A DNA stretch of 64,000 nucleotides from Terriglobia bacterium (GTDB lineage Bacteria; Acidobacteriota; Terriglobia; Terriglobales; SCQP01), in contig JAJPKR010000056.1 in the NCBI GenBank assembly GCA_021323595.1, positions 62,001 to 126,000 on the forward strand. The letters are read 5' to 3'. Numbering within the stretch: the stretch's first letter is position 1; every line of letters starts with the position of its first letter. The notes below the pieces were generated by a model that was given only the letters and a program-made list of their open reading frames with translations, made no database searches and was not told the DNA's origin. The position numbers and the translations under genes were made by a program. Positions 8,708 to 59,870 of this stretch are shown piece by piece.

Positions 8708-8714
8708 GACACGC

Positions 8715-26934: not shown

Positions 26935-27882
26935 TTACGGCGCTTGGCCGCCAGAGGATCCCGGCGCCGATGCTGCCGCGCGTGCACGTCCGGACGGGGC
27001 CGGTTGGCGTTCGCCGCGGGCGAGCAAGATCAGCGCTGGCCACAACAGCACAACGGCGATGGCGAAAAAGACGAAGCCGCCCTCGTGGTGCAGCCTGCCG
27101 TAAAGGAAGCCTGGGTTGACGTAGAGCGACAGCAGCGTAAGCGTGACGATGCGCACGCCGTTCTTGAACACCGAAAGCGGGATGGCAATCAGCACCAAGA
27201 GCGCGCGCCGTCCGGGTGACTGCAGGCTCAAGTACCCGGCAAGCAGTGCGGTAATCGCCAAGGCTTCGGAGGAACGAATGCTGCTGCACTCCTTAGCAAC
27301 GCGAATCGTGACACCAGGCAGAGCCAAGACAAAGCCCTCCCGATACACCGGCACACGCACTATATGAAACATTACGACACAGAGCCAGGTCGAACCGGCT
27401 TGCAGCCACACGATCAAGCGATTGACGCTGCTTAAGGGCAGCGGCGCGAAAAGAAAGCAAAAGAGCAGCGGAAAGAGCGCGGCACGAGCCGCCCGCCGGC
27501 CATAGCATCCGTAGAATCCTGCGGTCCAGACCAAGGCTACGCCGAGGCCCAGCAAAGTACTTCCATAACCGGCGTCGAGCCTGAAACCTATAAGGATGAG
27601 GGCGGCTCCCGCCAGAACGCCGACCGCCGCACCCCGCCAGGCCGGTTGCGCCGAAATGAAGATCTCGGCGCGCCGCAAATAGATGAGCCATGCGGCGATG
27701 AAGGGGATCAGCACTATGTACGAGCACCAGTCCTCGCCGAGCGAGAGCCGCACCAGGCGCAATAGCGCCGGCAGCATCGCAAGATTCGCGACCAGCCAAA
27801 ACCCGAAGTAAGCCAAGTGGCGGCGGCTCAATGCGTTAGGCGCATGCGTCGCGAAACCGGCGGGATTGGCCACATTAGACAT
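26935..27882 (-). CDS. Exosortase (EpsH/XrtA superfamily)
   Basis: Exosortases are integral membrane transpeptidase-like enzymes that process proteins with a C-terminal sorting signal, usually in EPS-producing Gram-negative bacteria. This 315-residue protein has about eight hydrophobic helices and all three catalytic residues: Cys199 (AKECSSIRSSEAL), Arg244 (FKNGVRI) and His266 (LHHEGGF). The tail from residue 290 is a basic, alanine/serine-rich extension. The start is the ATG at 27882; a GTG two codons earlier is possible. It lies at the border of the EPS locus, divergent from a small FN3 gene. I found no protein in the window with a PEP-CTERM-like tail. Confidence 0.88.
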   Translation of the reverse strand: MSNVANPAGFATHAPNALSRRHLAYFGFWLVANLAMLPALLRLVRLSLGEDWCSYIVLIPFIAAWLIYLRRAEIFISAQPAWRGAAVGVLAGAALILIGFRLDAGYGSTLLGLGVALVWTAGFYGCYGRRAARAALFPLLFCFLFAPLPLSSVNRLIVWLQAGSTWLCVVMFHIVRVPVYREGFVLALPGVTIRVAKECSSIRSSEALAITALLAGYLSLQSPGRRALLVLIAIPLSVFKNGVRIVTLTLLSLYVNPGFLYGRLHHEGGFVFFAIAVVLLWPALILLARGERQPAPSGRARAAASAPGSSGGQAP

Positions 27883-28082
27883 TGGCACTAGGATAGGGGC
27901 AAATCATCGTGTTTCGCCGCGAGGTCCTCTTGCAAGCGTTGGGCCTCGCGGCCTGGCGGCTCGCCGCTTGTCCTCGTGAGCGGCACTAAAGACCAGCCGC
28001 GGACAGGCAGCGGCGACTGCGCCAATTCCCTGCTCCTGCCGAGTTCTTTTGACTCCCAGCGCCCTGTCACCATGGGAGCACT

Positions 28083-33593: not shown

Positions 33594-34697
33594 ATGTCCA
33601 CCACCAAGGCCGGGCCCCGCCTGGAGCTCTCCGTCCACGCCGGGCCGATGCCGGAACCCGAGTTTCTGCGCCTGCTGTGCTGGGAACGCAAGCGGGCGGA
33701 ACGCAGCAATCGCCCCTTCCTGCTGCTCTTGCTCGAGGGCGCCGGGCTCTTCGAGGACCGGCGCCGCGCGCAGCAACTGGTGGCGGCGCTGGAAGCGAGC
33801 AAGCGGGAGACGGATTTTCTCGGCTGGCACCAGACCGAGACGCGGCTGGGGGTCATTTACACCGAGATCGAGGGTGCCGCGCCGTCCGCCTTGCAGGCGG
33901 CAGTGCAGCAGCGCATCGCGGCCGCCTGGGCGCCGCTCCTTACCGAAGAGCAGCTGGCCGCGGTGCGCTTCAGTTTTCACTTCTTCCCCGAGCCCTGGCA
34001 CGCGGAGAAGCGGCCGGCAACGGCGGCGTTTTATCCCGACCTGGAGCCGAAGCGCAAGCAGCAGCGGGCGGCGCGGATCGCCAAGCGCGCCATCGATATC
34101 GTCGGCGCGGCGCTGGCGCTGCTCTTCTTCTCGCCGGTGCTGGCGCTGGCGGCGCTGGCGATCAAGCTGGATTCGCGCGGGCCGGTGCTCTTCCGCCAGC
34201 AGCGGCTGGGGCAGTTCGGCCGGCCCTTTTTGCTGTTCAAGTTCCGCTCGATGCACGTCGCGAACGATCCCGCGATCCACCGCGCCTATATCGAGAAGTT
34301 CATCAACGGCAGCTTGCCGGAGAATGGCGGCGGCCCGCAGGTGTTCAAGATCCAGAACGACCCGCGCGTGACCCGCGCGGGCCGCTGGCTGCGCAAGACC
34401 AGCCTGGACGAGCTGCCGCAGTTCTGGAACGTGCTCCGCGGCGAGATGTCGCTGGTCGGGCCGCGGCCGCCGATCCCCTACGAAGCCGACAAATACAGCG
34501 TCTGGCATCACCGCCGGGTGCTCGAGGCCAAACCCGGCATCACCGGCCTGTGGCAAGTCTATGGGCGCAGCCGCACCGCCTTCGAAGAGATGGTGCGCCT
34601 CGATCTGCGCTATGTCCGCAACTGGTCGCTGTGGCTGGACCTGAAAATACTCTTTCGCACCCCCATCGCCGTCATTTTCGGCACCGGCGCGTACTGA
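33594..34697 (+). CDS. Priming sugar transferase with degenerate GGDEF-like N-terminal domain
   Basis: The protein is 367 residues. The C-terminal bacterial sugar transferase domain (about 160-367) has [16 protein letters not shown] (membrane anchor), [48 protein letters not shown] and [14 protein letters not shown]. It transfers a sugar-phosphate to undecaprenyl phosphate, the first step of repeat-unit assembly. The first 140 residues have no membrane helices, unlike WbaP/WcaJ, and resemble a GGDEF fold without catalytic residues: [19 protein letters not shown] and [21 protein letters not shown]. It could sense a nucleotide signal. Confidence 0.9.
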
Positions 34698-34726: not shown

Positions 34727-36133
34727 ATGAAGATCAGTATCATGGGAGCAGGATACGTCGGCCTCACGACGGCCGCATGCTTGGCCGAGATCGGCCATGA
34801 GGTGCTTTGCGCCGATAACGACGAAACCAAGCTGCGCGGTCTGGAAGCCGGGCGCCTGCCCTTCTTCGAGCCGGGGCTGGAAGGCATCGTCGCGCGAGCC
34901 CGCCGGAACGGCCGGCTGCGCTTCGTCGAGCCAGCGGCGGCGATCGCCAGCGAGGGAGTGCTGTTCATCTGCGTCGGCACGCCGCCGCGCGACAACGGCG
35001 AAGCCGACCTCTCCGCGATCGAGGCGGTGGCGCGCGCGGTGGCGCGCACCGCCAGCGGCTATCGGCTGATCGTCGAGAAGAGCACCGTGCCGGTGCAAAC
35101 GGCCAAGCGGCTGCGCAAGCACCTGAGCGCCTATTCGCGCAACGGCTTGCAGTATGACGTGGTCTCGAACCCCGAGTTCTTGCGCGAAGGCTCGGCGGTG
35201 GAGGACTTCTTCCATCCCGACCGGATTGTCGTGGGCGCGGAGAGCCCGCGCGCCCGGGAGCTGATGACCGCCGTGTACCGGCCGCTGCTCGATCAGACGT
35301 TCGCGTGCCCCGTCCATACCGATGCCGCTTGCCCGGAGCAGGCGCCGCCGCGGCTGATCGTGACCGACACCAACAGCGCCGAGTTGATCAAGCACGCCTC
35401 CAACTCCTTCCTGGCGATGAAGATCTCCTTCATCAACATGGTGGCGGATCTGTGCGAGGCGGCCGGCGCCGACATCGACAAGGTCGTCGAAGGCCTGGGC
35501 AGCGACCGCCGCATCGGTCCGTCGTTTCTGCGGCCCGGCATCGGCTTCGGCGGCTTCTGCTTCCCCAAGGATCTGCAGGCGTTCGTCCGCATCGCCGAAA
35601 ACTTCGGCTGCGATTTCGCGCTGCTCAAGGAAGTGGAAAATATCAACGCGCGCCGCGTCGAGCAGTTCGTGGCCAAGGTGCAAAAGGAGCTTTGGACCTT
35701 GCGCGGCAAGAAGCTCGCCGTGTGGGGCCTGGCCTTCAAGCCAGAGACCGACGACGTGCGCTTCGCGCCGGCGCTGGCGATCATCCGCCGGCTGCAGGCC
35801 GAAGGCGCGCAGGTGCACGCCTACGATCCGCAGGCGCGCGAGAAGGCGGCGCAGGAGCTGAGCGGCGTTCGCTTCCATGACGATCCCTACGCCGCGGCGG
35901 ACGAAGCCGAAGCGATCTTGCTGCTGACCGAGTGGAGCGAATTCCGGTACCTCGATTGGAACCGCATCGCGGCAGCGATGGCGCGGCCCTTGTTGTTCGA
36001 CGGCCGCAACATGCTCGAGCGCGAAGTCATCACCGCCCACGGACTGCATTACTTCGCTATCGGCAAGGAGCCGGCGGCGCCGCTGCTCGCGCGCCAAAGC
36101 CTGGGGGCGGCCCTGGCCGAGGCGGCCAGCTAG
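34727..36133 (+). CDS. UDP-glucose 6-dehydrogenase
   Basis: The enzyme oxidises UDP-glucose to UDP-glucuronate with NAD. It is 468 residues. The Rossmann loop is [15 protein letters not shown] (7-21). The catalytic cysteine is C278 in [13 protein letters not shown], where phenylalanine replaces the usual serine before Cys. [21 protein letters not shown] and the C-terminal [17 protein letters not shown] are typical. An AAAGGA SD precedes the ATG at 34727. It feeds the UDP-xylose synthase immediately downstream. Confidence 0.93.
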
Positions 36134-37128: not shown

Positions 37129-37195
37129 TTTTCGCGACGGTTCCCCCCCCCGCCGTCCTTCCCGAACCACCTGCAATCCTGATTGGAGTTGCTCC

Positions 37196-38197
37196 ATGAT
37201 TCGTTTTGGTGTCATCGGCTACGGCTATTGGGGACCGAATGTCGTCCGCAACCTGCGCAAGCTCGAACGCTCGCAGGTGACCGGCATCTGCGATAAAAGC
37301 GAGAAGTCGCGCCGCCGCGCCGCGCAAGATAATCCGGGCGTGCCGCTGACGGACGATCCAGCGGAACTGATCGCCTCGCCGGACGTGGATGCGGTCGCCG
37401 TCATCACGCCGGTTTGGAGCCACTTCGAGCTGGCCAAGGCGGCGCTCGAGGCCGGCAAGCACGTCTTCGTCGAGAAACCCTTCACCTCCACCGTGGCGCA
37501 AGCCGAGCAGCTGATCGAGCTCGCCGCCCGCCGCAATCTGCGCATCATGGTGGACCACACGTTCCTGTTCACCGGCGCGGTGCGCAAGATCCGCGAGCTG
37601 ATCGATGAGGGCACGCTCGGCAAGCTCTTCTATTACGATTCGACGCGGGTGAACCTGGGGCTGTTCCAGCACGACGTGAACGTCCTCTGGGACCTGGCGC
37701 CGCACGATCTCTCGATCATGAGCCACCTCATCGCCGCGAAGGCGCAGGCGGTGGTGGCCACCGGCGAACAGCACCTCAACGGGCACGCCGACGTGGCGTA
37801 CATGACGGTCTATTTTCCCGGCAACGTCATCGCCCACATCAACGTCAACTGGCTGTCGCCGGTGAAGGTGCGCACCACCCTGATCGGCGGCGAGAAGAAG
37901 ATGGTCGTCTGGAACGACCTCGAAGCCGACGAGAAGATCAAGGTCTACGACAAGGGCGTGCAGGTCGCCAACGGCCAGGGCCTCTACGAACTGCTGGTCA
38001 GCTATCGCTCCGGCGACATGTGGGCGCCCAAGGTCGAGCAGAACGAAGCGCTCTCGACCGAGCTCAGCTACTTCCTTGATTGCATCGAGGGCGGCAAGAA
38101 TCCGCATAACGACGGCGGCGCCGGGCTCGAAGTCGTGCGCATGCTCGAGGCCGCCGACCGCTCCCTGAGCGAGCGGGGACGGTTGGTGGAGCTGTAG
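37196..38197 (+). CDS. Gfo/Idh/MocA family oxidoreductase (WlbA/WbpB-like sugar 3-dehydrogenase)
   Basis: The protein is 333 residues. An NAD-binding Rossmann fold (GVIGYGYWGPNVVRNLRKL) and EKPFT (catalytic lysine region) are followed by VNLGLFQHDVNVLWDLAPHDLSIM, which closely resembles WlbA-type enzymes that oxidise C3 of UDP-GlcNAc-uronate. The two following genes, an acyltransferase and an aminotransferase, complete a 3-oxo, 3-amino, 3-acylamino sequence. The exact sugar substrate is not determinable here. Confidence 0.85.
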   Translation: MIRFGVIGYGYWGPNVVRNLRKLERSQVTGICDKSEKSRRRAAQDNPGVPLTDDPAELIASPDVDAVAVITPVWSHFELAKAALEAGKHVFVEKPFTSTVAQAEQLIELAARRNLRIMVDHTFLFTGAVRKIRELIDEGTLGKLFYYDSTRVNLGLFQHDVNVLWDLAPHDLSIMSHLIAAKAQAVVATGEQHLNGHADVAYMTVYFPGNVIAHINVNWLSPVKVRTTLIGGEKKMVVWNDLEADEKIKVYDKGVQVANGQGLYELLVSYRSGDMWAPKVEQNEALSTELSYFLDCIEGGKNPHNDGGAGLEVVRMLEAADRSLSERGRLVEL

Positions 38198-38242: not shown

Positions 38243-38758
38243 ATGGAAACGTATTTGTGCATCGCGCCGGACGTGCGGCTGGGCGCCGGCGTCAAGCTCG
38301 CCAAATTCATCAATCTTTACGGCTGCTCGATCGGCGATAACACCAAGATCGGGGCGTTCGTCGAGGTGCAGAAGAACGCCGCGATCGGCGCCAACTGCAA
38401 GATCTCGAGCCACACCTTCATCTGCGAAGGCGTGACCATCGAGGACCGCGTCTTCGTGGGCCACGGCGTGGTCTTCATCAACGATTCCTATCCGCGCGCG
38501 ACCACCGCCGGCGGCGGGCTGCAAACCGAAGCCGATTGGCAGGTCGAGCGCACGCTGGTCAAGGCCGGCGCCTCGATCGGCTCGGGCGCGACGATTCTCG
38601 CCAACGTGACCATCGGCGAGAACGCGATCGTCGGCGCCGGCAGCGTGGTCACGCGCGACGTGCCGGCCAACGCCATCGTCGCCGGCAATCCCGCGAAAGT
38701 GCTGCGCTATCTCCAGGCGGGCGAGCGCCCGGCGGCTGCGGCCGCCGCCCGTCCCTGA
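38243..38758 (+). CDS. Left-handed beta-helix N-acetyltransferase (WbpD/WlbB-like)
   Basis: The protein is 171 residues with hexapeptide repeats through most of its length ([77 protein letters not shown], ending [12 protein letters not shown]). It should form a trimer and acetylate the 3-amino group of a nucleotide sugar with acetyl-CoA. The sugar-oxidising gene precedes it and the aminotransferase follows. Confidence 0.87.
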
Positions 38759-38825: not shown

Positions 38826-40067
38826 ATGAGCCTGCCATCGCAAATTCCGTTCGTGGACCTTGTCGCTCCTCACGTCGAAATGGAGGCCGAACTCCTCGAC
38901 GTCACCCGCACCGTGCTGCGCAGCGCCGGCTTCATCGGCGGGCCGATGGTGGCGGACTTCGAGCACGACTTCGCCGCCTACTGCGACGCCGAGCACGCGA
39001 TCGCGGTCAACAGCGGCACCGACGCGCTGCGCTTCGCGCTGCTGGCGGCGGGGGTGACCGAGGGGCACCTCGTGCTCACGGTGGCGAACACCTTCATCGC
39101 GACCACGGAAGCGATCACGCAAGCGGGGGCGCGGCCCCAGTTCATCGAGATCGACGAGCGCACCTATAATCTGGACCCGCGGCGGCTGCGCGAGTTCCTG
39201 GAGCGCGAGTGCGTCTTCGACGCGCGCGTGCGCCGCACCATCCATCGCCGCACCAGCCGGCCGGTGACGGCGGTGATCCCGGTGCATCTCTTCGGCCAGT
39301 GCGCCGACATGGATCCGATCCTGGAGCTGGCCGAGCGCTTCAACCTGACGGTGATCGAAGACGCCTGCCAGGCGCACGGCGCCGAATACTTCTCCAAGGC
39401 GGAGAATCGCTGGCGCAAGGCGGGCTCGATGGGACGCCTCGCCGCCTTCAGCTTCTATCCCGGCAAGAACCTGGGCGCCTGCGGGGAAGGCGGCGCCGTC
39501 ACCACCAGCGACGACGAGATGGCGCGGCGCGTGCGCATGCTGCGCGACCACGGCCAGGCGAAGAAGTACTACCACGACATCGAGGGCTACAACGGCCGCC
39601 TCGACGCCTTGCAGGCCGGCTTTCTGGCGGCCAAGCTGCGCCGCCTCGACGGCTGGAACCAAGCGCGCCGCGAGCACGCCGCCCGCTACAAGCAACTGCT
39701 GGCGCCGCTGGCGCCGGCGCTGACGCTGCCGCACGTGCCCAACAACAGCCGCCCGGTGTTTCATCTCTTCGTCGTGCGCGTCGCCGACCGCGAAGGCTTG
39801 CAGCAGCACCTGGCCGGGGCCGGCATCGGCACCGGCATCCATTACCCGATTCCGCTGCACTTGCAGAAGGCCTACGTGGCGCTCGGCTACCGCAAGGGCG
39901 ATCTGCCCATCACCGAGCGCGCAGCGGCGGAGATCGTCTCGCTGCCGATGTTTCCGCAAATGACCGAGGCGCAGTTGCGGCATGTCGCCGGCGCGGTCGC
40001 GGATTTTTTGGCGCCGCGCAAGGCGGTCGAGGCCGAACCGCTCGCCGCCGCCGCCGCCCGCGGCTAA
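38826..40067 (+). CDS. DegT/DnrJ/EryC1 family sugar aminotransferase
   Basis: This PLP enzyme aminates a 3- or 4-keto nucleotide sugar. It is 413 residues. The Schiff-base lysine is K214 (SFYPGKNLGACGEGG). NSGTDALRFALLAAGV, VIPVHLFGQCADMD, IEDACQAHGAEY and GYNGRLDALQAGFL are all family signatures. With its two upstream neighbours it would build a 3-acetamido sugar (WbpE role). A good AAAGGTGA SD region precedes the ATG. Confidence 0.92.
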   Translation: MSLPSQIPFVDLVAPHVEMEAELLDVTRTVLRSAGFIGGPMVADFEHDFAAYCDAEHAIAVNSGTDALRFALLAAGVTEGHLVLTVANTFIATTEAITQAGARPQFIEIDERTYNLDPRRLREFLERECVFDARVRRTIHRRTSRPVTAVIPVHLFGQCADMDPILELAERFNLTVIEDACQAHGAEYFSKAENRWRKAGSMGRLAAFSFYPGKNLGACGEGGAVTTSDDEMARRVRMLRDHGQAKKYYHDIEGYNGRLDALQAGFLAAKLRRLDGWNQARREHAARYKQLLAPLAPALTLPHVPNNSRPVFHLFVVRVADREGLQQHLAGAGIGTGIHYPIPLHLQKAYVALGYRKGDLPITERAAAEIVSLPMFPQMTEAQLRHVAGAVADFLAPRKAVEAEPLAAAAARG

Positions 40068-42635: not shown

Positions 42636-43559
42636 ATGGACACGTGCGAAATTATGCGGCCACCCTTACTCGACTCGCGGCCGATTCAGGTGCGAGGCAC
42701 GCTCGTGAGCATCGCCCGCTTGGACGCCGACGACTTTTTGTTTCTCAGCGACCCAGAAGCTGCGGTGCGCGCCCTGCGGGCATCCCGACGGGGCGCGGAC
42801 CTCTTCACCTTCTTACAGCCGCTGCCGGATTCGAGCATTCGCTACCCGTACCCATACGAGATGGATAACTTCGCCGCGCTGCCGATCACGACCTTCGACG
42901 AATGGTGGAACAAGCAGATCGGCTTCAAGGCGCGAAACAAGGCGAAGCAAGCGGCGAAGAAGGGAGTCGTAGTCCGCGAGGTTTCGCTCAATGAAAAACT
43001 CGTCGAGGGCATTTGGGAGATTTACAACGAAACGCCGATCCGCCAGGGACGGCGGTTTCCGCACTACGGAAAAGGCCTGGATGCCGTGCGGCGCATGAGC
43101 GCCACATTTCCCGAGCACAGCATCTTCCTCGGAGCGTTCTATGGCGACCGTTTGATCGGCTTCGTCAAACTCGTCGCTGATCAGACTCGCACGCAGGCAG
43201 GACTGATGCACATCCTCTCTTTAATCGCACACCGGGAAAAGGCGCCGACCAACGCCTTGGTCGCTGCCGCGGTGCGCGCGTGCGCCGACCGCGGCATTCG
43301 GTATCTTACGTACGCCCGCTACGCGTACGGAAGAAAAGAGCAAAGCAGCCTTGCGGATTTCAAGGAGCGGAACGGTTTCGTCCGCATGGACGTACCTCGC
43401 TATTACGTCCCGCTCACGCCTTGGGGAGCGTTGGCGCTCCGCTTGGGACTTCACCGGAGCTTGAAAGAGCGGATTCCGGAAGGGGTCGCAGCGCCCCTGC
43501 GATCGCTGCGCGCAGCCTGGTACCAGCGCCGCTTCGGCGCCGCGGTGGAATCGGCGTAG
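42636..43559 (+). CDS. GNAT/FemAB-like acyltransferase of unknown substrate
   Basis: The protein is 307 residues, soluble. The middle and C-terminal parts look like a GNAT fold: FLGAFYGDRLIGFVKLVADQ, MHILSLIAHREKAPTNALVAAAVRACADRGIRYLTYARY, then FKERNGFVRMDVPRYYVPL. Such proteins occur in EPS loci, where they acylate sugars or add amino acids. Composition is slightly less GC-rich than its neighbours. The fold call is moderately sure, the reaction is not. Confidence 0.6.
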   Translation: MDTCEIMRPPLLDSRPIQVRGTLVSIARLDADDFLFLSDPEAAVRALRASRRGADLFTFLQPLPDSSIRYPYPYEMDNFAALPITTFDEWWNKQIGFKARNKAKQAAKKGVVVREVSLNEKLVEGIWEIYNETPIRQGRRFPHYGKGLDAVRRMSATFPEHSIFLGAFYGDRLIGFVKLVADQTRTQAGLMHILSLIAHREKAPTNALVAAAVRACADRGIRYLTYARYAYGRKEQSSLADFKERNGFVRMDVPRYYVPLTPWGALALRLGLHRSLKERIPEGVAAPLRSLRAAWYQRRFGAAVESA

Positions 43560-43615
43560 ATGGTCGCGTCTGGACGCCCGGCGCGGCGTCCCTTGCCCCT
43601 GTAGGAACCAAGTCT

Positions 43616-44665
43616 ATGTCAACGCTGGCTGCTCGGCCGATTCCCGCAGCGTCCACCGGCGCCGCCGCCACGGCGCGGCTGCCCGAACTGGATTTCGTAA
43701 AGGGCGCCCTGATCCTGTTCATGGTTCTTTACCATTGGTGGAGCATCTTCATCTCGCCGTTCGGCGAGATCTTCGTGTACCTGCGGTTCCTTACCCCGTC
43801 ATTCATCTGCATCTCCGGATTCATCGTATCGAGCATCTACTTTTCCAAGTACCCGAATCGCGGCCGCATCGCCAGCCGCTTGCTGGTGCGGGGGCTCAAG
43901 CTGCTCGGGGTCTTCGTGGCGCTCAACGCGGCGAGGATGGCGGCCTCGGCGCTCTGGCTGCACTTGCCGCTGCAGCGGCTGAACGCGAGCGCCCTGTACG
44001 ACATCTGGGTCACTGGGAACGGGCCCGAATCCGGCAACGCCAAGCTCGCGGCGTTCCATATCCTGGTGCCGATCGGCTATCTGCTCTTGGCCCTAGCGCC
44101 GCTGGTCTTGCTGTGCCGGCGGGATCGGCGGCCGATAGGCTGGGCGCTGGTAGGAGCGTGGCTGCTCGCCGGTTTTCTCTCGCTGAGCGGGGCGCCAAAC
44201 GTCAATCTCGAACTGCTGGCGATCGGCCTCCTGGGGGCGGTGCTGGGCGCGCTGCCGCTGCCGGCGATCCAGAGATTCCTAGCTCGCCGATGGCCGGTCA
44301 TAGCCATCGCCTACGCGGGCTATGCCGCGGCCATCGGCGTTTGGGGCGTTCCCTACGTCTGGCAGGTCGTCGGGGTGCCGCTGACCCTGGCGGCTCTTTA
44401 TGCGCTGGGGATCGCGATCGTAAAGCTGCGCGCCGGCCGACCGATCGTGTTCTTCGGGCGCTATTCCTTGGTCGGCTATATCGTGCAGATCGCCATCCTG
44501 CAAGTGCTGGAACACCTTTGGGGCAGGTCCGGCCTGGGTTTGACGGGCCTGCTTGCAACCTTCGCCGCGGCTTTGTTGGGCACCTACTTTCTGACGGTCG
44601 GGGTGGACCGCCTGCGGCAGGTTTCGCCCTTGGCCGATTCCGCCTATAAGGCGGTGTTTGCGTAA
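43616..44665 (+). CDS. Membrane acyltransferase (acyltransferase 3 / HGSNAT-like)
   Basis: The protein is 349 residues with about ten membrane helices. It begins RLPELDFVKGALILFMVLYHWW, the conserved first helix with the histidine that takes part in acyl transfer in this superfamily. It would transfer an acetyl or other acyl group from the cytosol to a carbohydrate on the outer membrane leaflet side. A TAGGAACC SD precedes the ATG at 43616. It is placed among the polymer-modifying genes. Confidence 0.78.
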   Translation: MSTLAARPIPAASTGAAATARLPELDFVKGALILFMVLYHWWSIFISPFGEIFVYLRFLTPSFICISGFIVSSIYFSKYPNRGRIASRLLVRGLKLLGVFVALNAARMAASALWLHLPLQRLNASALYDIWVTGNGPESGNAKLAAFHILVPIGYLLLALAPLVLLCRRDRRPIGWALVGAWLLAGFLSLSGAPNVNLELLAIGLLGAVLGALPLPAIQRFLARRWPVIAIAYAGYAAAIGVWGVPYVWQVVGVPLTLAALYALGIAIVKLRAGRPIVFFGRYSLVGYIVQIAILQVLEHLWGRSGLGLTGLLATFAAALLGTYFLTVGVDRLRQVSPLADSAYKAVFA

Positions 44666-44666
44666 C

Positions 44667-46514
44667 ATGCCTGGGCTCTTCGGCATCATCCGCCCGATTG
44701 GGAGCCGCGAGCCGCGCGGCGAGCTGGAGGCCATGCAGGCGGAGCTGCGGCACGAGGCCTTCTACCGCTCCGGCGCGTGGAGCGAACCGAACGCCGGCGT
44801 TCGGGCGGGCTGGGTGGCCCGCGAGCGTTCGTTCTCCGACACCCCGCCTCTGCGCAACGAGACCGGAGAGATCACGCTGCTCTTTGCCGGCGAGGAGTTC
44901 CCCGATCCCGGGCTGCGAGGCGAACTGCGCCGGCGCGGCCATTCGGTGGAATCCGAAGGGCCGGACTATTTGGTGCACCGGTACGAGGAGGAAGGCGACT
45001 TCCCGCGCCAGCTCAACGGCCGCTTCCACGGGCTGGCCGTGGATGCGCGGCGGGGCACGGCGATTCTCTTCAACGACCGCTACGGCCTCCAGCCGGTTTA
45101 CTTCCATGAGGCGCCGGAAGGCTTCTATTTCGCTTGCGAGGCCAAAGCGATTTTGGCGGCGCGGCCGGAATTGCGAGAATTCGATCCTCGCGCGCTCGGC
45201 GAGTACATCGCCTGCGGCTGCGTGCTCGAGAACCGGACGCTGTTTCCCGGCATCGGCGTTCTGCCGCCGGGCTCGGCGTGGCGGTTCGAGCGCGGGCGCC
45301 TGGCGGCCAAGACGACCTATTTCGAGCCGCAGGAATGGGAGCAACAGGAGCCGCTCGACGAAGAGGCGTACTACCGGCTGCTGCGCGACTCCTTCGAAGG
45401 GACGCTGCCGCGCTATTTCGAGGGGCGGGAGCGCATTGCCGTCTCGCTCACGGGCGGGCTCGATACCCGCATCATCATGGCCTGGCGCCGCGCCGCACCC
45501 GGCGCCCTGCCCTGCTACACCTACGGCAGCGCCTACCGCGACAACCAAGACGTCAAGCTGGCGCGCCGCGTGGCGGCGCTCTGCGGGCAGACCCACGCGA
45601 CGATCCCCGTGGATGACGAGTTTCTCGGCCGCTTTGCGCATTACGCCGAGCGCACGCTCTATCTCACCGAAGGCGGCGTGGACACCAGTCGCGCGCCGGA
45701 CCTGTACGTGAGCGAGGAAGCGCGGAAGATCGCGCCGGTGCGGATGGTGGGAACCTACGGAAGCGAAATCATCAACGGCGCGGTGATGTTCAAGGCGCAG
45801 GAACCGGCGGCTCCGATCTTCAGCCGCGAGTTCATGGCGCAGGCGCGGACCGCCCGCGAGACCTACGCGAACGCCCGCCAGTCGCATCCGGCGACCTTCA
45901 TCGCTTTCCGCCAGTCGCCCTGGCACCACTACGGCGTCTTGGGGCTGGAGCAGACGCAGTTGGCCGTGCGCTCGCCCTATCTCGACAACGCCGTGGTGCA
46001 AGCCGTCTATCGCGCGCCGGCGGACGCCGCCGACCCGCGGCCGCGGCTGATCCGGGAGATGAGCCCCGTTCTCGGGCGGCTGCGCACGGACCGCGGCCTC
46101 GGCGCGCGCGGGCTGCTCGGCGCGCTCCAACGCCTCTATCTCGAATTCACGTTCAAAGCCGAGTACGCCTACGACATGGGCATGCCGCAGTGGGTCGCGG
46201 CGGTGGATCACGCCTTCGCTCCCCTGCGCCTGGAGCGGCTGTGGCTGGGCCGCCACAAGGTCTATCACTTCCGCATCTGGTTTCGCACCGCCCTTCGGCG
46301 ATATGTGCAGGACGTGCTGCTCGATCCCGCCGCGCTCGCGCGCCCCTATGTGAACCGGGCGGCCGTCGAGGAGATCGTCCGGCGGCACTTGAAGGGGGAT
46401 CGCAACTACACGGACGAAATCCATCGCCTCCTGTCGCTGGAATTGCTCCACCGGCTCTTCGTGGACGCGGGAGCCAAGAACGCGGCCGCTGGAGCCGCCT
46501 TGGCCGCGCGCTAG
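44667..46514 (+). CDS. Asparagine synthetase-like protein lacking the glutaminase cysteine
   Basis: The protein is 615 residues with an N-terminal Ntn-like domain and a C-terminal synthetase domain. It starts MPGLFGII, so the catalytic Cys2 of class II glutamine amidotransferases is replaced by proline. NDRYGLQPVYF and FACEAKAIL mark the rest of that domain. The PP-loop reads SLTGGLDTR (SGGxDS-like), with AVRSPYLDN later, so ATP-dependent adenylation is probably intact. Beta-lactam synthetases also lack this cysteine. It may form an amide with an amine other than glutamine-derived ammonia. The start is decided by the ATG after the previous stop. Confidence 0.85.
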   Translation: MPGLFGIIRPIGSREPRGELEAMQAELRHEAFYRSGAWSEPNAGVRAGWVARERSFSDTPPLRNETGEITLLFAGEEFPDPGLRGELRRRGHSVESEGPDYLVHRYEEEGDFPRQLNGRFHGLAVDARRGTAILFNDRYGLQPVYFHEAPEGFYFACEAKAILAARPELREFDPRALGEYIACGCVLENRTLFPGIGVLPPGSAWRFERGRLAAKTTYFEPQEWEQQEPLDEEAYYRLLRDSFEGTLPRYFEGRERIAVSLTGGLDTRIIMAWRRAAPGALPCYTYGSAYRDNQDVKLARRVAALCGQTHATIPVDDEFLGRFAHYAERTLYLTEGGVDTSRAPDLYVSEEARKIAPVRMVGTYGSEIINGAVMFKAQEPAAPIFSREFMAQARTARETYANARQSHPATFIAFRQSPWHHYGVLGLEQTQLAVRSPYLDNAVVQAVYRAPADAADPRPRLIREMSPVLGRLRTDRGLGARGLLGALQRLYLEFTFKAEYAYDMGMPQWVAAVDHAFAPLRLERLWLGRHKVYHFRIWFRTALRRYVQDVLLDPAALARPYVNRAAVEEIVRRHLKGDRNYTDEIHRLLSLELLHRLFVDAGAKNAAAGAALAAR

Positions 46515-46518
46515 GCTT

Positions 46519-47913
46519 ATGTCACCGTCGCTTGCGCTCACGGTTTGGGCCGCCGGCGTGCTCGGCTTGTTCTACCTCGATCGCGAGCGCGGGGCCACGC
46601 CGTCGAAGGCGCTGTGGCTGCCGACTCTTTGGCTGCTGATCAACGGCTCGCGGCCGGTCACGATGTGGCTGGGGATGCAACCGGCGGTCTCCATGCAGCA
46701 GCAGATCATGGACGGCACGCCGGCCGACGCTGCCGTCTTCGGGGTGTTGCTGGCGCTTGGGCTCGTGGTGGTCTGGCGCCGCCGCCGGCTCGCGGGTGCG
46801 GTTCTGCGCCAAGCTTGGCCGGTCCTGATCTATTTTGGCTATTGCCTGGCGAGCGTGCTGTGGTCGAACATCGCCGATGTCGCGGCGAAGCGCTGGGTGA
46901 AATCCCTTGGCGATCTGGCGATGGTCCTGGTCGTCGCGACCGAACCGGATCTGGCGCTGGCCCTCCGCCGTCTGTTTTCGCGTACCGCGATTCTGCTGCT
47001 GCCAGCCTCGATTCTCTTCATCCGCTATTTCCCCGCCTTGGGGCGGAGCTTCGATCCATGGAGCGGCGCGCCAACCAACGTGGGAGTCACCACGAACAAG
47101 AACATTCTCGGCGCCGTGGCCTTCTTGCTCGCGCTCGGCGCCTTGTGGCAGGTGCTGAGCCTGGCTTCCGAGAAGCTCGCGCCGGGCCGGCGCCGCCGGC
47201 TCCTGGCCCAGTTCGCGATTTTGGTGGTCGCCGTCTTCGTGCTCCAGCAGGCCCACTCGGCCACCTCGATTTCCGCGGCCCTGTTTGGGGGCGCGCTGAT
47301 TCTGGCGACGCTTCTGCCGATGATGCGGCGGCCGGCGATGGTGCACGCGATCGTCGCCTTCATTCTCGTGGGCGGGCTGCTGGCCTTTTGGCTGGGCGCC
47401 GAAGGAGCCGTCACGCACGAGTTGGGTAGGAAGTCCGACCTGACTGGCCGGACCGAGATTTGGCACGGCGTCTTGGCGCAGGCGGCGCTCAGCCCGATTG
47501 TAGGCGTCGGTTTCGAGAGTTTTTGGACCGGGCCGAATCTTCTCGCCGTATCCCGGCGCCTGCCTCACTTCGAGGGCAGCGGGTTCGCCAACGAAGCTCA
47601 CGACGGTTATATCGAGGTTTATGCCGAGGTGGGCATGGTCGGACTCACGCTCATTATCGGGATCCTGGTCGGCGCCTACCGCCGGGCGGTGAGGGCGTTC
47701 GCGCTCAATCCGATGGCGGGCCGGCTCATGCTGGGTTACGTGGCCGCGCTCGCGATCTACAACATCACGGAAGCCGGGTTTCGCATGCTCAGTATGGCTT
47801 GGATCTTCCTGCTGCTCGCCGTAATCTGCGCCGCGAGAATCGTCTGCCAGGCGCAAAGCGCCCCGCTCGAGTCCCCGGCCGCGCAGGCACAGGCGATGGA
47901 GGTGCCCGCGTGA
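46519..47913 (+). CDS. O-antigen ligase / Wzy-type polymerase
   Basis: This integral membrane protein has 464 residues and about 11-12 helices. The large periplasmic loop contains GRTEIWHG-like TGRTEIWHGVLAQA and GVGFESFWTG, then FANEAHDGYIEVYAEVG, matching the Wzy_C/O-antigen ligase region with its conserved H and E. As the only such gene in the window, it is the best candidate for polymerising the repeat units. Its stop overlaps the next GTG by three bases (GTGA). Confidence 0.87.
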   Translation: MSPSLALTVWAAGVLGLFYLDRERGATPSKALWLPTLWLLINGSRPVTMWLGMQPAVSMQQQIMDGTPADAAVFGVLLALGLVVVWRRRRLAGAVLRQAWPVLIYFGYCLASVLWSNIADVAAKRWVKSLGDLAMVLVVATEPDLALALRRLFSRTAILLLPASILFIRYFPALGRSFDPWSGAPTNVGVTTNKNILGAVAFLLALGALWQVLSLASEKLAPGRRRRLLAQFAILVVAVFVLQQAHSATSISAALFGGALILATLLPMMRRPAMVHAIVAFILVGGLLAFWLGAEGAVTHELGRKSDLTGRTEIWHGVLAQAALSPIVGVGFESFWTGPNLLAVSRRLPHFEGSGFANEAHDGYIEVYAEVGMVGLTLIIGILVGAYRRAVRAFALNPMAGRLMLGYVAALAIYNITEAGFRMLSMAWIFLLLAVICAARIVCQAQSAPLESPAAQAQAMEVPA

Positions 47914-54447: not shown

Positions 54448-55761
54448 ATGAAGATCAGCGTTTTTGGCTTGGGTTATGTGGGCACGGTGACATCGGCGTG
54501 CCTGGCGAGCGACGGGCACGAGGTCATCGGCGTCGATCCGGCAAAGACCAAGGTGGATCTCGTCAACGCCGGCAAGTCGCCGATCATCGAGGCCGAAGTT
54601 GGCGAACTGCTGGCGCGCGCGGTCCAGGAGGGCCGCCTGCGGGCCACGGCCGACGATGCCGCGGCGGTGCGCGCCAGCGAGCTGTCGCTGGTCTGCGTCG
54701 GGACGCCCAGCCAGATCAACGGCAACCTGGACCTGCGCTATATCCGCCGCGTGTGCGAGCAGATCGGCGCGGCGATCTCAGCCAAGCCGGGCCGGCACAC
54801 GGTCGCCATCCGCAGCACGGTGCTGCCGGGCACGATCCATGACGTGGTGATACCCACTCTCGAGGAACATTCGGGCAAGCGCTGCGGCGCCGATTTCGGC
54901 GTGGTCAGCAATCCGGAATTCCTGCGCGAGGGCACGGCGGTGGCCGATTTCAAAGCGCCGCCCAAGACGGTCATCGGCGAAATCGACCGCGCCAGCGGCG
55001 ACCTCGTGGCTTCCCTCTACGAAAAGCTGGATGCGCCCCTGATCCGCACCGATCTGCGCACGGCGGAGATGGTCAAATACGTGGACAACGCCTGGCACGC
55101 GCTCAAAATCGGCTTCGCCAACGAAATCGGCAACTTCGCCAAGCACGCTGGCGTGGACGCGCACCGGGTGATGGATATCTTCTGCCAGGACCGCAAGCTC
55201 AACCTCTCCAGCGCCTATCTCAAGCCCGGCTTCGCCTTCGGCGGCTCCTGCCTGCCCAAGGACTTGCGCGCCCTGGCCTATGCCGCCAAGCAGCGCGACC
55301 TCGACCTACCCATCCTGCGCGCGATCCTGCCCAGCAACGAGCTTCAGATCGCCCGCGGCACGCAGCTCGTCATGGAAAAAGGCCGCAAGCGCGTCGGCAT
55401 TCTCGGCTTCAGCTTCAAGGGCGGCACCGACGACCTGCGCGAGAGCCCGGTGATCGAGGTGGTCGAACGCCTGGCGGGCAAAGGCTATGACGTGCGCCTC
55501 TATGACCGCAACGTGAGCCTGGCGCGGCTGGTCGGCGCGAACCGCGACTTCATTCTCAACCATATCCCCCACATCTCGAAGCTGATGCTGGAGAGCGTGG
55601 AGGCGGTGCTGGCGCACGCCGAAACGGTGGTGATCGCCAACCACGACCCTGAGTTCCAAAACGTCCCGAACCGACTGCGCGACGGGCAGTGTCTCGTGGA
55701 TTTCGTGCGCATCGCCGGCGAGACCGCGAGCAATGGCCGCTACGATGGCATCTGCTGGTAG
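54448..55761 (+). CDS. algD: GDP-mannose 6-dehydrogenase (AlgD-like)
   Basis: The enzyme oxidises GDP-mannose to GDP-mannuronate. The 437-residue protein nearly equals Pseudomonas AlgD in length, and from memory of that sequence its landmarks coincide: FGLGYVGTVTSACLA at the start, [36 protein letters not shown], the catalytic C268 in AFGGSCLPKDLRAL, FKGGTDDLRESP and the C-terminal GICW. This favours GDP-mannose over UDP-glucose. The gene differs from the UDP-glucose dehydrogenase at 34727, so two uronate precursors may be used. No alginate polymerase (Alg8/Alg44) is in the window. Confidence 0.88.
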   Translation: MKISVFGLGYVGTVTSACLASDGHEVIGVDPAKTKVDLVNAGKSPIIEAEVGELLARAVQEGRLRATADDAAAVRASELSLVCVGTPSQINGNLDLRYIRRVCEQIGAAISAKPGRHTVAIRSTVLPGTIHDVVIPTLEEHSGKRCGADFGVVSNPEFLREGTAVADFKAPPKTVIGEIDRASGDLVASLYEKLDAPLIRTDLRTAEMVKYVDNAWHALKIGFANEIGNFAKHAGVDAHRVMDIFCQDRKLNLSSAYLKPGFAFGGSCLPKDLRALAYAAKQRDLDLPILRAILPSNELQIARGTQLVMEKGRKRVGILGFSFKGGTDDLRESPVIEVVERLAGKGYDVRLYDRNVSLARLVGANRDFILNHIPHISKLMLESVEAVLAHAETVVIANHDPEFQNVPNRLRDGQCLVDFVRIAGETASNGRYDGICW

Positions 55762-56701
55762 CGCGGCGGCAAGCGCGGCCCGGCGCGCCCTGCCGCCGTA
55801 TGTGCTGATCACGCCGGCGCGCAACGAGGCCGCCTTCATCGAGAAGACGCTCGGCTCCATGGCTGCGCAGACGGTGCGGCCGCTGAAATGGGTGATCGTG
55901 GATGACGGCTCGACCGACGACACCGCGGCGATCGTGAGCCGCTATTTGCCGGCCAATCCCTGGATCGAGCTGCTGCCGCGGCCGCGGCGCGCCGAGCGCA
56001 CTTTCGCCGGCAAGGCCCATTCGCTGGCGGCGGGTTACGAGCGAGTACGGTACCTGCCCTTCGAGGTGATCGGCAATCTGGATGCCGACATCTCCTTCGA
56101 GCCGGACCATTTTGAGTTTCTGCTGGAGCGCTTCGCCGCGAATCCCAAACTGGGCGTGGCGGGCACGATCTTCCGCCAAGATGGCGGCTACAGCTCCGAC
56201 CGCGACAGCTTCGAAGGTTCCCGGTACGTGGCCGGCCAGTGCCAGCTTTTCCGGCGCGCGTGCTGGGAGCAGATCGGCGGCTACGTTCCGAACCCGGCCG
56301 GCGGCCTGGATTGGATCGCGGTGACTACGGCGCGCATGCGCGGCTGGGAGACGCGGTCCTACCGGGAGCGGGCATTTTTCCACCATCGCCGCCTGGGAAC
56401 CGCCGAGAGGGGGCCGGTGGCGGCCATGTTTTCCTACGGGCAAAAAGATTACTACCTGGGCGGGCATCCGCTGTGGCAAGCCTTTCGCGTGGCGTACCGG
56501 GCTGTCCGGCCTCCGTACGTCGTCGGAGGCTTGGCGTTGGGGCTGGGCTACGGATGGGCGGCGCTGCGGCGGCTGCCGCGGCCGGTGTCGCGGGAGCTGA
56601 TGCGCTTCCACCGCCGCGAACAACTGGCCAAGCTGCGGGCCATTTGCGCAGCGCTGGCGCGCGGCCGCAAGCCCGATGCCTTCACGCTGGGAGAGCGCTA
56701 G
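55745..56701 (+). CDS. Family 2 glycosyltransferase
   Basis: The protein is 318 residues. GT-A motifs are YVLITPARNEAAFIEKTLGSM, WVIVDDGSTDDT, IGNLDADISFEPDHFEFLL and GTIFRQDGGYSSDRDSF. A C-terminal region with aromatic and basic residues might associate with the membrane. The ATG at 55745 is chosen; an in-frame ATG at 55733 also exists, and either overlaps algD. Downstream the alpha/alpha-barrel gene starts one base after its stop. Donor unknown. Confidence 0.88.
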   Translation: MASAGSAAASAARRALPPYVLITPARNEAAFIEKTLGSMAAQTVRPLKWVIVDDGSTDDTAAIVSRYLPANPWIELLPRPRRAERTFAGKAHSLAAGYERVRYLPFEVIGNLDADISFEPDHFEFLLERFAANPKLGVAGTIFRQDGGYSSDRDSFEGSRYVAGQCQLFRRACWEQIGGYVPNPAGGLDWIAVTTARMRGWETRSYRERAFFHHRRLGTAERGPVAAMFSYGQKDYYLGGHPLWQAFRVAYRAVRPPYVVGGLALGLGYGWAALRRLPRPVSRELMRFHRREQLAKLRAICAALARGRKPDAFTLGER

Positions 56702-56702
56702 C

Positions 56703-57935
56703 ATGGCAACCCAAACCGCCGCGGTCAAAGTTCTCGGGCCCGAACTCGCCCGGCGAGTAGGCGCGGCGGTCGAGCGCTTCACCGCCTGGCTCGACCGGTT
56801 CGGCGAAACCTCCTACGACTTTCAGACCGTCTATGCCAGCCCGGCCGGGCGCGCGGTTAAGCGCCTGTACTATCGCCGGCCGAAGCTCGGAACCTTGGCC
56901 GTCGCGCCGATGGTGGCGTGCGAGGCGCTGGCGCCGGCGGCGCGCCGCTTCTTCTGGAAGAAGCAGCGCTTCCCGATCGCCGACGCGCACTTCGCCATGG
57001 GCTTCGCGTTTCTGGCGGCGAGCGGCGGCGAGCGCAGGCATTGGGAGCGCGCCCGGCACTTCCTCGAAGTGCTCGAGGAGACGCGCTGCCCGAACCAGCG
57101 CGATTATTGCTGGGGCTATCCCTTTCATTGGGAGACCCTCAACGGCACGATCTGGGCGGGCACGCCGCTCATCACCACCACGCCCTACGCCTATGAAGCG
57201 TTTTCGCAGGTCTATGCGTTCGATCACGATCCGCGCTGGCGGCGGATCATGGAATCCGTGGCGCATCACTGCTTCGCGGATTACCGCGATCTCGAGACCG
57301 GCCCCGGGGCGGCCAGTTCCGGCTACACGCCGGCGCCCGACGACCGCTGCCTGGTCGTGAACGCCAGCGCCTACCGCGCCTTTGTCCTAACCCAAGCGGG
57401 CTTGGAGCTGGGCGAGGAGCGGTACCTGGCCAAGGCGGAGCGTTACGTCAACTTCGTGGCTCAGGCGCAGAATCCGGACGGCTCCTGGCCCTACGCGAAG
57501 GACGGGCAGCGGAATTTCGTGGACCACTTCCATACCTGCTTCGTGATGAAGGCGCTGGCCAGGATCGAGGCTCTGACCGGCAGCCGAACGGCGGGCGCGG
57601 CGATTGAACGCGGCGTGGCCTTTTACACCGCCAACTTGTTCGACGCCGCCGGCCTGCCGCGGCCGTTCGCGCGGCCGCCGCGGCTGATCACCTATCGCCG
57701 CGAACTCTACGACTACGCCGAATTCTTGAATCTGGCGGTGCTGCTGCACGGCCGGTTCCCGGCCCTCGACCGCCTGCTGCCGGGCGTAGTCGAGGACCTG
57801 CTCGGCCGCTGGCAGAAGCGGAGCGGGGCGTTCCGCTCGCGGCAGCTGCTCCTGGGCTGGGACGACGTGCCCATGCTCCGCTGGGCGCAGGCGCAGCTTT
57901 TCCGCAGCCTGTGCTTTTTGCTGGCACGGAGCTGA
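56703..57935 (+). CDS. Alpha/alpha-barrel protein, possibly VpsJ-like polysaccharide protein
   Basis: The protein is 410 residues, cytosolic by appearance (no signal peptide). It looks helical throughout with repeats like those of six-hairpin or prenyltransferase-type toroids: AHFAMGFAFLAASG, YLAKAERYVNFVAQAQNPDGSWPYAKDG and VDHFHTCFVMKALARI. The DGSWPY and FHTCF segments resemble proteins annotated near VpsJ in Vibrio-type EPS loci, but I cannot verify this. A role in glycan handling is plausible; no catalytic residue can be named. Confidence 0.55.
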   Translation: MATQTAAVKVLGPELARRVGAAVERFTAWLDRFGETSYDFQTVYASPAGRAVKRLYYRRPKLGTLAVAPMVACEALAPAARRFFWKKQRFPIADAHFAMGFAFLAASGGERRHWERARHFLEVLEETRCPNQRDYCWGYPFHWETLNGTIWAGTPLITTTPYAYEAFSQVYAFDHDPRWRRIMESVAHHCFADYRDLETGPGAASSGYTPAPDDRCLVVNASAYRAFVLTQAGLELGEERYLAKAERYVNFVAQAQNPDGSWPYAKDGQRNFVDHFHTCFVMKALARIEALTGSRTAGAAIERGVAFYTANLFDAAGLPRPFARPPRLITYRRELYDYAEFLNLAVLLHGRFPALDRLLPGVVEDLLGRWQKRSGAFRSRQLLLGWDDVPMLRWAQAQLFRSLCFLLARS

Positions 57936-57941
57936 CCCCCG

Positions 57942-59870
57942 ATGTGCGGCATCTGCGGACAATTCAATTTCGGCAGCGGCGCGCCGGTGGCGCGCCGCAC
58001 GGTCGAGGCGATGGCCCGCTCCATCGCGCATCGCGGGCCCGACGACGAGGGCTTTCACCTCGACGGCGAGCTGGGCCTGGGGTTTCGCCGCCTTTCCATC
58101 ATCGACCTCGCCGGCGGGCATCAGCCGATGTCGGACAAGAAGCAGTCGGTCTGGCTGGTCTTCAACGGCGAGATTTACAACTTCCCGGATCTGCGGCGCG
58201 AACTCGAGGCCCACGGCCATGTCTTCCGCACGCGCTGCGACACCGAGGTCATCATCCACGGCTATCAGCAATGGGGCGATCAAGTCCTGAACCGCCTGAA
58301 CGGCATGTTCGGGCTGGCGCTTTGGGACGCGCGCCGGCGGCGCCTGCTGCTGGCGCGGGACGCCTTCGGCATCAAGCTCGTGTATTACCGCGCCGGCGGC
58401 GGCTCGCTGTGGTTCGGCTCGGAGATGCGCGCCGTGCGCGCGGCCATGCCCGAAGGCGCCGAAGTCGATCCCACGGCGCTGAGCCTCTTCCTGCGCTATC
58501 GCTTCACGCCCTCGCCCCACACCATCCTGCGCGGCGTGCGCAAGCTGGCGCCGGGCACCAAGCTGGTGGCCGAAAACGGCGCGTGGCGCGTGAGCCGCTG
58601 GTATCAGTTCGCGCCGAAACCGTTCGCGCCGCCGAAGTCGGCGGGCGAGGCGCGCGAGGAGCTGCTGCGGCTTTACCAGCAAGCGGTCAGGCGCCAGTTG
58701 ATGAGCGACGTGCCGGTCGGCCTGCTGCTCAGCGGCGGCATCGACTCCGGACTGCTGCTGGCGCTGATGAACGGCTGCGGCCGCAATTGGCCGACCTTCA
58801 CCGTCGGCTACGGCACCAGTTTCGCCGATGACGAGCTGGAAGACGCGGAAGAGACGGCGCGAATTCTCGAATCCCGCCACACCAGCGTCAGGATCTCGCG
58901 CAGCCTCTTCGAGCAGGAGCTCGGCAGCATCGTCGGGGCGCTCGAGGAGCCGATCGCGGCGTCCTCGATCGTGCCGATGTATTTCGTCTGCCGGCGCGCG
59001 CGCCAAGACGTCAAAGTCGGCCTCGTCGGCCAGGGACCCGATGAGCTCTTCGGCGGCTACCAGCGGCACCTGGGCGCGCGCTACGCCGGCGCGTGGGCCG
59101 GCTTGCCGGGCTGGGTGAGAACACCCCTGGCCAAGACGCTCGCGCGGCTGCCGCGCAACGAGGCGCTGCAGCGCGGACTCTACGCGCTCGCGACGCGCGA
59201 TCGCGTGCGGCGCTACGAGCAGATCCTTTCCCTGCTGCCGGCCCGGCAAGTGGACGGCCTGTTTCAGCCCGGCGTGCTGCGGGAAGACACCGCCGAGAGC
59301 CTGCGCGAGTGCTGGGCGGATCTGCTGCCGCTGATGCACGGGACCGACGAACTGGGCGGGCTGCAATTTCTGGAGGTGCGCTCGACGCTGCCCGACGAAT
59401 TGCTCATGTACGCCGACAAGCTCTCCATGGCGCACAGCCTGGAGCTGAGAGTTCCCTTCCTGGACAAAGACATCGTGGAGTTCGTCGAGCGCCTGCCCGC
59501 AAGCTTCAAGGTGCGGAACGGGTCGCGGAAGTGGCTGCATCGCCAGGTCTGCCGGCAATTCTTGCCGGCCGCGATCGTGCGCCGGCCCAAGCGCGGCTTC
59601 GCGGTCAACGTGGTGGACGGCTGGTTTCGCGACGCCCTCGGCGGAACGATGGCGAACGTCTTCAACGACGAGCAGTCGGCCATGTACCGGTATTTTCGTC
59701 CCGCGGAAGTTCGGAAGCTCCACGCGGAGCATGCAGCCGGGCGGCGGGACTATCACAAGCTCCTGTTCAGCCTGGTGGTCTTCGAGCATTGGTTGCGCAC
59801 CAACGCGCCGTCCGAGCCCGTGGCGGCGGCCGCTTCGTCTGGAAGTGCAGATCCATCTCGAGTGCATTGA
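57942..59870 (+). CDS. Asparagine synthetase (glutamine-hydrolysing), AsnB type
   Basis: The protein is 642 residues with both domains intact. It begins MCGICGQFNF, so the glutaminase Cys2 is present, followed by IAHRGPDDEGFH, LVFNGEIYNFPDLRREL and DAFGIKLVYY. The ATP-binding PP-loop is LLLSGGIDSGLL, and VGLVGQGPDELFGGY and LPDELLMYADKLSMAHSLELRVPFLD complete the synthetase signature. In EPS loci such genes probably amidate uronic acids or modified sugars rather than make free asparagine; this is inference from position. It contrasts with the Cys2-less homologue at 44667. Confidence 0.93.
   Translation: MCGICGQFNFGSGAPVARRTVEAMARSIAHRGPDDEGFHLDGELGLGFRRLSIIDLAGGHQPMSDKKQSVWLVFNGEIYNFPDLRRELEAHGHVFRTRCDTEVIIHGYQQWGDQVLNRLNGMFGLALWDARRRRLLLARDAFGIKLVYYRAGGGSLWFGSEMRAVRAAMPEGAEVDPTALSLFLRYRFTPSPHTILRGVRKLAPGTKLVAENGAWRVSRWYQFAPKPFAPPKSAGEAREELLRLYQQAVRRQLMSDVPVGLLLSGGIDSGLLLALMNGCGRNWPTFTVGYGTSFADDELEDAEETARILESRHTSVRISRSLFEQELGSIVGALEEPIAASSIVPMYFVCRRARQDVKVGLVGQGPDELFGGYQRHLGARYAGAWAGLPGWVRTPLAKTLARLPRNEALQRGLYALATRDRVRRYEQILSLLPARQVDGLFQPGVLREDTAESLRECWADLLPLMHGTDELGGLQFLEVRSTLPDELLMYADKLSMAHSLELRVPFLDKDIVEFVERLPASFKVRNGSRKWLHRQVCRQFLPAAIVRRPKRGFAVNVVDGWFRDALGGTMANVFNDEQSAMYRYFRPAEVRKLHAEHAAGRRDYHKLLFSLVVFEHWLRTNAPSEPVAAAASSGSADPSRVH

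Follow-up and report, generated by a model that had tools for sequence, protein, structure and literature searches.

The window examined here is a stretch of 64,000 nucleotides (contig JAJPKR010000056.1, positions 62,001 to 126,000, assembly GCA_021323595.1) from a soil acidobacterium of the Terriglobia. It carries, within an exopolysaccharide (EPS) locus, a gene termed ASN, whose product is homologous to the asparagine synthetase AsnB, yet has proline in place of the catalytic glutaminase cysteine. The ASN family is a real, conserved branch within a known superfamily. The evidence computed for it consists of the loss of the glutaminase site, the conserved synthetase motifs, the fold and the pairing with a GNAT/FemAB-like transferase gene. 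The reading proposed, to which we give about an even chance, is that ASN is an ATP-dependent amide synthetase which is not driven by glutamine and which works alongside a VimA-like GNAT protein in modifying an amino sugar that bears a carboxylate and belongs to an exosortase-associated polysaccharide. The features of the gene are as follows.

44667..46514, plus strand: ASN, a predicted Cys2-less AsnB-fold amide synthetase of 615 amino acids, with an ATG start and beginning MPGLFGII
44667..44675, plus strand: start codon and Pro2-Gly3, aligned with the AsnB Cys1 position
Residues 1-220, approximately: N-terminal domain, resembling class-II glutamine amidotransferases but glutaminase-dead
Residues 221-600, approximately: PP-loop synthetase domain
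45444..45470, plus strand: PP-loop SLTGGLDTR (residues 260-268), by alignment
45750..45773, plus strand: GTYGSEII (residues 362-369), counterpart of GEGSDEVF in AsnB and GYGADI in beta-lactam synthetase (beta-LS)
46257..46259, plus strand: Lys531, by alignment the counterpart of the catalytic Lys449 of AsnB and Lys443 of beta-LS

The first-pass annotation had placed proline at the Cys2 position, and both the start and Pro2 are confirmed in the open reading frame and in all close homologues. In a scan of genome contigs, 18 relatives were recovered, with best-segment identities of 46-71%; 17 of them bear names of Acidobacteria or allied groups and one belongs to the Verrucomicrobiota. The sequence (M/L/V)-P-G stands at the same start, be it ATG, GTG or TTG, in the window protein and in 18/18 relatives; one relative (L048) has an internal deletion and another (L050) a frame cut after 184 amino acids, the start being unaffected in both. 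In seven further, more distant members, taken from whole genomes, the site holds P (four), A, T or S and never C, and Cys at position 2 occurs in 0/24 aligned members. That ASN could simply be a glutamine user, its lack of Cys2 being due to a wrongly called start or a sequencing error, retains hardly any probability: Pro2 recurs at the same start in all 18 relatives, and the pocket residues Arg49, Asn74 and Asp98 are replaced as well, by which alignment a misplaced start or sequencing error is ruled out. The upstream start restoring Cys2, on which the first-pass claim could have foundered, was not found; MCG is absent from the 24 codons between the ASN start and the preceding in-frame stop, and the sole other upstream in-frame start, a TTG at 44658, gives MRNMPG. 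Relatives of ASN were not found in viral contigs, while plasmid matches were partial, at most 31% identical and, where annotated, named asnB. An antisense frame of 747 amino acids (44298-46541, minus strand) overlaps the gene and is probably a product of high G+C content.

The 24 ASN members (17 close and 7 distant) were aligned with E. coli AsnB and 27 Cys-positive homologues. At the glutamine site of AsnB, Cys1 is replaced by Pro, Arg30 by Glu and Arg49 by Trp (17/17 close members), Asn74 by Ser, Ala, Gly or His, and Asp98 reads Gly, Asp or Ala, with Asp retained in 3/17; the Cys-positive homologues, in contrast, keep the C, R, N and D of the pocket almost without exception. Since Cys2, Arg49, Asn74 and Asp98 are all changed, the defect covers the whole pocket and not a single residue. 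ASN lacks both the nucleophile Cys2 and the pocket residues Arg49, Asn74 and Asp98 that mark a class-II (Ntn) amidotransferase, and, as judged from these residues, this conserved Cys2-less AsnB homologue is most unlikely to hydrolyse glutamine with its own domain. The dead domain is conserved like the synthetase half (mean column identity 0.71 in each, with 22% and 21% invariant columns, respectively), and is thus maintained rather than decaying; selection may retain it for some other role.

In the synthetase half, most features for ATP-dependent amide formation appear to be retained. The GG-D of the PP-loop is kept in 24/24 members, Lys531 in 23/24 (all 17 close ones and 6/7 distant ones), and R400-x-P-x-L-D almost throughout. 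The first-pass annotation had described the PP-loop and the rest of both domains as kept; this stands for the fold but not for the residues, for besides Arg49 to Trp, the replacement of Asn74 and the loss of Asp98, the loop reads TGGxD[TS]R in 24/24 members versus SGGxDS in 27/27 Cys-positive homologues (T-G-G-x-D-[T/S]-R against S-G-G-x-D-S-S). The GEGSDE motif of AsnB is mostly G-[TN]-Y-G-[SG]-E in the family, and can be set against GTYGSEII in two registers, one residue apart, so that the counterpart of Asp351 depends on the register chosen; read via beta-LS (LTGYGADI, 1JGT) or CarA (LTGYGSDL), Tyr364 corresponds to Tyr348 and Glu367 to Asp351. The changes in the PP-loop (S to T and S to R) and in the GExSDE motif would suit a protein without catalytic activity that serves the GNAT protein or the polysaccharide machinery as a scaffold or regulator, yet degenerate ATP sites usually vary, whereas GG-D, Lys531 and RxPxLD are kept almost throughout, and such a role is considered unlikely.

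With 17 input sequences, AlphaFold modelled the synthetase half poorly (pLDDT 60); after addition of the Cys-positive homologues, the model from 44 sequences (pLDDT 89.2, pTM 0.90) showed the whole AsnB fold. Structural comparison of the model by Foldseek and VIA-align gave, in the latter, Z scores of 32.0 for AsnB (1ct9; 444 aligned, 3.5 Å), 31.7 for TsnB9 (7ylz; 511 aligned, 2.9 Å), 27.6 for beta-LS, 26.3 for human ASNS and 24.1 for CarA. The Pfam families PF00733 and PF13537 are found above cut-off, combining the amidotransferase-like and PP-loop synthetase domains in one chain. The more specific models are not reached: asparagine synthetase TIGR01536 scores 101.7 bits (cut-off 267), the XrtA/PEP-CTERM amidotransferase TIGR03108, which is WbpS-like, 109.9 bits (cut-off 816.9), and NF033535 and NF033561 42.9 and 44.7 bits (cut-offs 525 and 300), the latter two being weak matches to lasso-peptide and macrolactam cyclases, with which ASN shares the amide formation of the AsnB superfamily. 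ASN thus shares with E. coli AsnB the two-domain fold, the GG-D of the PP-loop and Lys449, but differs in lacking Cys1, Arg49, Asn74 and Asp98, in its TGGxDTR loop and in the altered GExSDE motif.

Placed in a tree with AsnB and beta-LS, as the first-pass annotation had advised, the ASN family is split off by a branch with an SH-aLRT of 100 and a stem length of 2.42 changes per column. This confirms a separate long-stem clade but does not support a specific kinship with beta-LS, since beta-LS (a reference sequence identical to 1JGT over all 513 residues in a PDB search) and CarA group with E. coli AsnB in the best tree; a joint clade of ASN with beta-LS/CarA is not rejected by the approximately unbiased (AU) test (p 0.353), long branches being in play. 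The idea of an amine donor other than glutamine, as in beta-LS, therefore survives in part, through a family that lacks Cys2 and very probably does not hydrolyse glutamine by itself, and without the beta-LS relationship. A beta-LS-like cyclase forming an intramolecular amide would accord with the shared AsnB fold (Z 27.6), the loss of the glutaminase Cys, the replacement of Asn74 by Ala as in beta-LS, a Tyr close to the Glu348 position and the likeness of Y-G-[SG]-E to Tyr348-G-A-Asp351 of beta-LS. Of the Tyr348-Glu382 dyad of beta-LS, however, the Tyr is present in 19/24 members and is replaced by F, N or W in the other five, and the counterpart of Glu382 is ambiguous. The PP-loop of beta-LS is SGGIDSS as against TGGxDTR, the two lactam-forming enzymes are not grouped with ASN in the best tree, though with the AU result given above, and secondary-metabolite genes are absent among the profiled neighbours. 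Cyclisation is thus very improbable; positive evidence for it was not obtained, and the neighbouring genes suggest a sugar carboxylate.

The strongest new evidence on ASN is its pairing with the GNAT gene, located upstream with one further gene between them here.

42636..43559, plus strand: GNAT/FemAB-like transferase, the partner gene of ASN, by neighbourhood conservation and weak profiles
43280..44665, plus strand: acyltransferase-3 membrane protein between the GNAT gene and ASN (Pfam PF01757; domain from about 43685, the start of the reading frame being mechanical)

The GNAT gene lies near ASN in 24/28 loci, while the acyltransferase-3 gene is found in only a few of the loci. In a survey of 396 genomes of the phylum (ASN at E<=1e-60, GNAT at E<=1e-20), ASN occurs in 10 and the GNAT gene in 7, all within those 10 (Fisher p 4e-13, a value that overstates independence, as the surveyed genomes are related). 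The pair is also present in the genome of Terracidiphilus gabretensis S55. Among the exceptions without the GNAT gene, ASN of G219 lies at a contig edge, and in G261 and G268 TupA-like ATP-grasp genes adjoin ASN. In L068 a pair of such ligase genes (PF14305), side by side and immediately before ASN, takes the place of the GNAT gene, and the G261 gene falls into the same cluster of sequences; in L036 and L037 the GNAT gene lies outside the ASN locus, elsewhere in the genome. In L067 (G261; 8232-10088), where such an ATP-grasp gene adjoins, ASN is split into three pieces by in-frame stops, and the related genome holding L068 has an intact copy (6846-8714).

The product of the partner gene has no Pfam match at the normal threshold. 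Across its family of 14 members, weak matches were obtained to Acetyltransf_1 in eight, Acetyltransf_6 in five and FemAB in three (best E 8e-6), and pepcterm_femAB (TIGR03019) weakly matches three members (best E 0.0027); its PDB matches are GNAT acetyltransferases.

The EPS setting given in the first-pass annotation is upheld by the surrounding genes, and the Cys2-positive homologue that it reported at 57942 is real.

34730..36133, plus strand: UDP-sugar 6-dehydrogenase; best model TuaD, UDP-glucose dehydrogenase
37193..38197, plus strand: GFO/IDH/MocA oxidoreductase, WbpB-like; nearest named model UDP-GlcNAc 3-dehydrogenase
38243..38758, plus strand: hexapeptide N-acetyltransferase, WbpD-like, by profiles
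38826..40067, plus strand: DegT-family sugar aminotransferase, WbpE-like; WbpE structures among its matches (3e-69), other aminotransferases higher
57942..59870, plus strand: Cys2-positive AsnB homologue of the EPS amidotransferase type, beginning MCGICGQ (NCBIfam TIGR03108, 481 bits)
26935..27888, minus strand: exosortase bordering the EPS locus, also placed at 27028-27780 (Pfam PF09721, 134.5 bits; NCBIfam exosortase models)

Upstream of ASN, the UDP-sugar 6-dehydrogenase, an epimerase, the oxidoreductase, the hexapeptide acetyltransferase and the DegT aminotransferase make up a 3-amino-sugar cassette of the WbpB/D/E kind. A WbpB-like oxidoreductase (E<=1e-80) is found in 48/396 genomes, namely in 9/10 with ASN versus 39/386 others (p 3e-8), and in those nine it is always on the contig of ASN, at gaps of 1.5-15.6 kb. 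A firm WbpA/B/D/E assignment was considered and set aside, the profiles being insufficient.

Several further genes of the locus may be mentioned. At least six related loci also contain a second conserved block of three genes (55733-59870 in the window), which encode a GT2 glycosyltransferase, a 419-residue protein and the Cys2-positive AsnB homologue; the 419-residue protein is without a Pfam match, and a relative matches squalene-hopene-cyclase weakly. The polyprenyl sugar phosphotransferase (33594-34697) has a first stretch of about 150 residues unlike the N-terminal part of the models, and similar N-termini occur in the relatives' loci. At the end of the window, an ATP-grasp protein (PF15632; 62477-63685) follows an FAD-dependent oxidoreductase and is possibly a further ligase of the locus.

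The closest parallel is the Wbp/Vim pathway of Porphyromonas gingivalis, in which the Wbp enzymes make 2,3-di-N-acetylglucuronic acid, and the AsnB homologue PGN_1234 (WbpS) converts this uronic acid to its amide. The sugar, which becomes attached to the C-termini of proteins, receives serine from VimA, or glycine in Tannerella; VimA is itself a match to GNAT and TIGR03019, and the authors remarked on relatives of it beside exosortases (PMC7468200). The present locus resembles that pathway in having, linked to one another, an AsnB-type enzyme, a GNAT-type protein with weak TIGR03019 matches, WbpB/D/E-type genes that score below the named-model cut-offs, and a sortase-type system; the two differ in phylum, and PorU is present there, whereas an exosortase and a glutaminase-dead enzyme are found here. 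In Bordetella, a putative asparagine synthase is encoded in the b-Cool locus, the glycan of which bears uronamides (PMC12407052). A literature search found no paper that describes, for an EPS locus, an AsnB relative without the Cys.

By analogy with these pathways, we infer the activity of ASN, its substrate, its amine donor and the sugar shared with the GNAT protein. ASN would have lost glutamine hydrolysis for good while retaining carboxylate activation, and would adenylate a carboxylate, most likely the uronic-acid (or an aminoacyl) carboxylate of a sugar from the neighbouring 3-amino-sugar cassette. The activated carboxylate would then be joined to an amine from outside its own glutaminase, either free ammonia or an externally delivered amino group. 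The GNAT/FemAB-like transferase would act in the same pathway, acylating or aminoacylating the same sugar, as VimA does, and the result would be an amino sugar with an amide, incorporated in the exosortase-associated EPS. Since the Cys2-positive homologue may already provide a plain uronamide, a different amine would be favoured for ASN.

The alternative with the next claim to attention, still tentative and clearly less probable, is a simple enzyme of the WbpS kind that makes uronamides from free ammonia, having lost its glutaminase and keeping the pseudo-amidotransferase domain for structure only. Glutaminase-dead AsnB variants retain ammonia-dependent activity, and the fold and the Lys449 counterpart are kept in ASN. 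The reaction would be of the same class as that of WbpS/WbqG in O-antigen loci (PMC7468200), and ASN has in common with the TIGR03108-related WbpS/WbqG/PGN_1234 enzymes its superfamily, a locus that includes 3-amino-uronic-acid genes together with a GNAT/FemAB-type transferase, and the predicted amide on the sugar carboxylate, although ASN has neither Cys2 nor the glutamine pocket and falls far below the TIGR03108 cut-off. However, the dead domain is as well conserved as the synthetase half, with an invariant Trp at the Arg49 site, beyond the needs of a scaffold; the strict GNAT pairing would be left unexplained, and a Cys2-positive enzyme is present in the same locus.

Several points weigh against the proposed synthetase acting with a GNAT partner. 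The 3-amino-sugar genes score under the named-model or curated cut-offs, the two UDP-sugar dehydrogenases of the window score best as UDP-glucose and not UDP-GlcNAc dehydrogenases, and profile scoring identified no WbpA (UDP-GlcNAc 6-dehydrogenase) in the window. In the ungapped register, the simplest one, Asp351 of AsnB falls on Ser or Gly and Glu352 on Glu367, so that the reaction with Mg and ATP might be changed or missing. The Cys2-positive amidotransferase of the locus could itself make a simple uronamide. The data come mostly from metagenome-assembled genomes of few phyla, and in 14 further carriers of ASN the exosortase is absent in two and weak in two. An obligatory partnership with the exosortase is rejected on this last count, and it is rather a frequent neighbour, lying 12-33 kb from ASN on the same contig in 8/13 carriers; exosortases are present in 144/396 genomes. 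The window exosortase has its best NCBIfam match in the XrtC type (142 bits, below cut-off), XrtA-type chain-length and kinase proteins accompany it, and PEP-CTERM sequences occur in the genome.

A bolder extension, which we regard as doubtful, is that ASN represents a novel kind of AsnB-fold ligase, independent of glutamine and with its glutaminase domain put to another use, which together with a dedicated aminoacyl-transferring GNAT protein builds an amino-acid- or amide-modified sugar, this being the exosortase attachment compound for PEP-CTERM proteins. If the reading of the genomic context is true, a small gene set, namely the GNAT protein, the synthetase, the 3-amino-sugar cassette and the exosortase, would be named for the compound to which exosortases supposedly attach proteins.

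The present work describes an AsnB branch that is without glutamine use throughout, is under constraint and has one fixed partner gene. ASN is glutaminase-dead in every relative examined yet conserved beside one transferase gene in sugar-polymer loci, and by analogy this soil acidobacterium probably uses it to make an unusual amide-bearing surface sugar.
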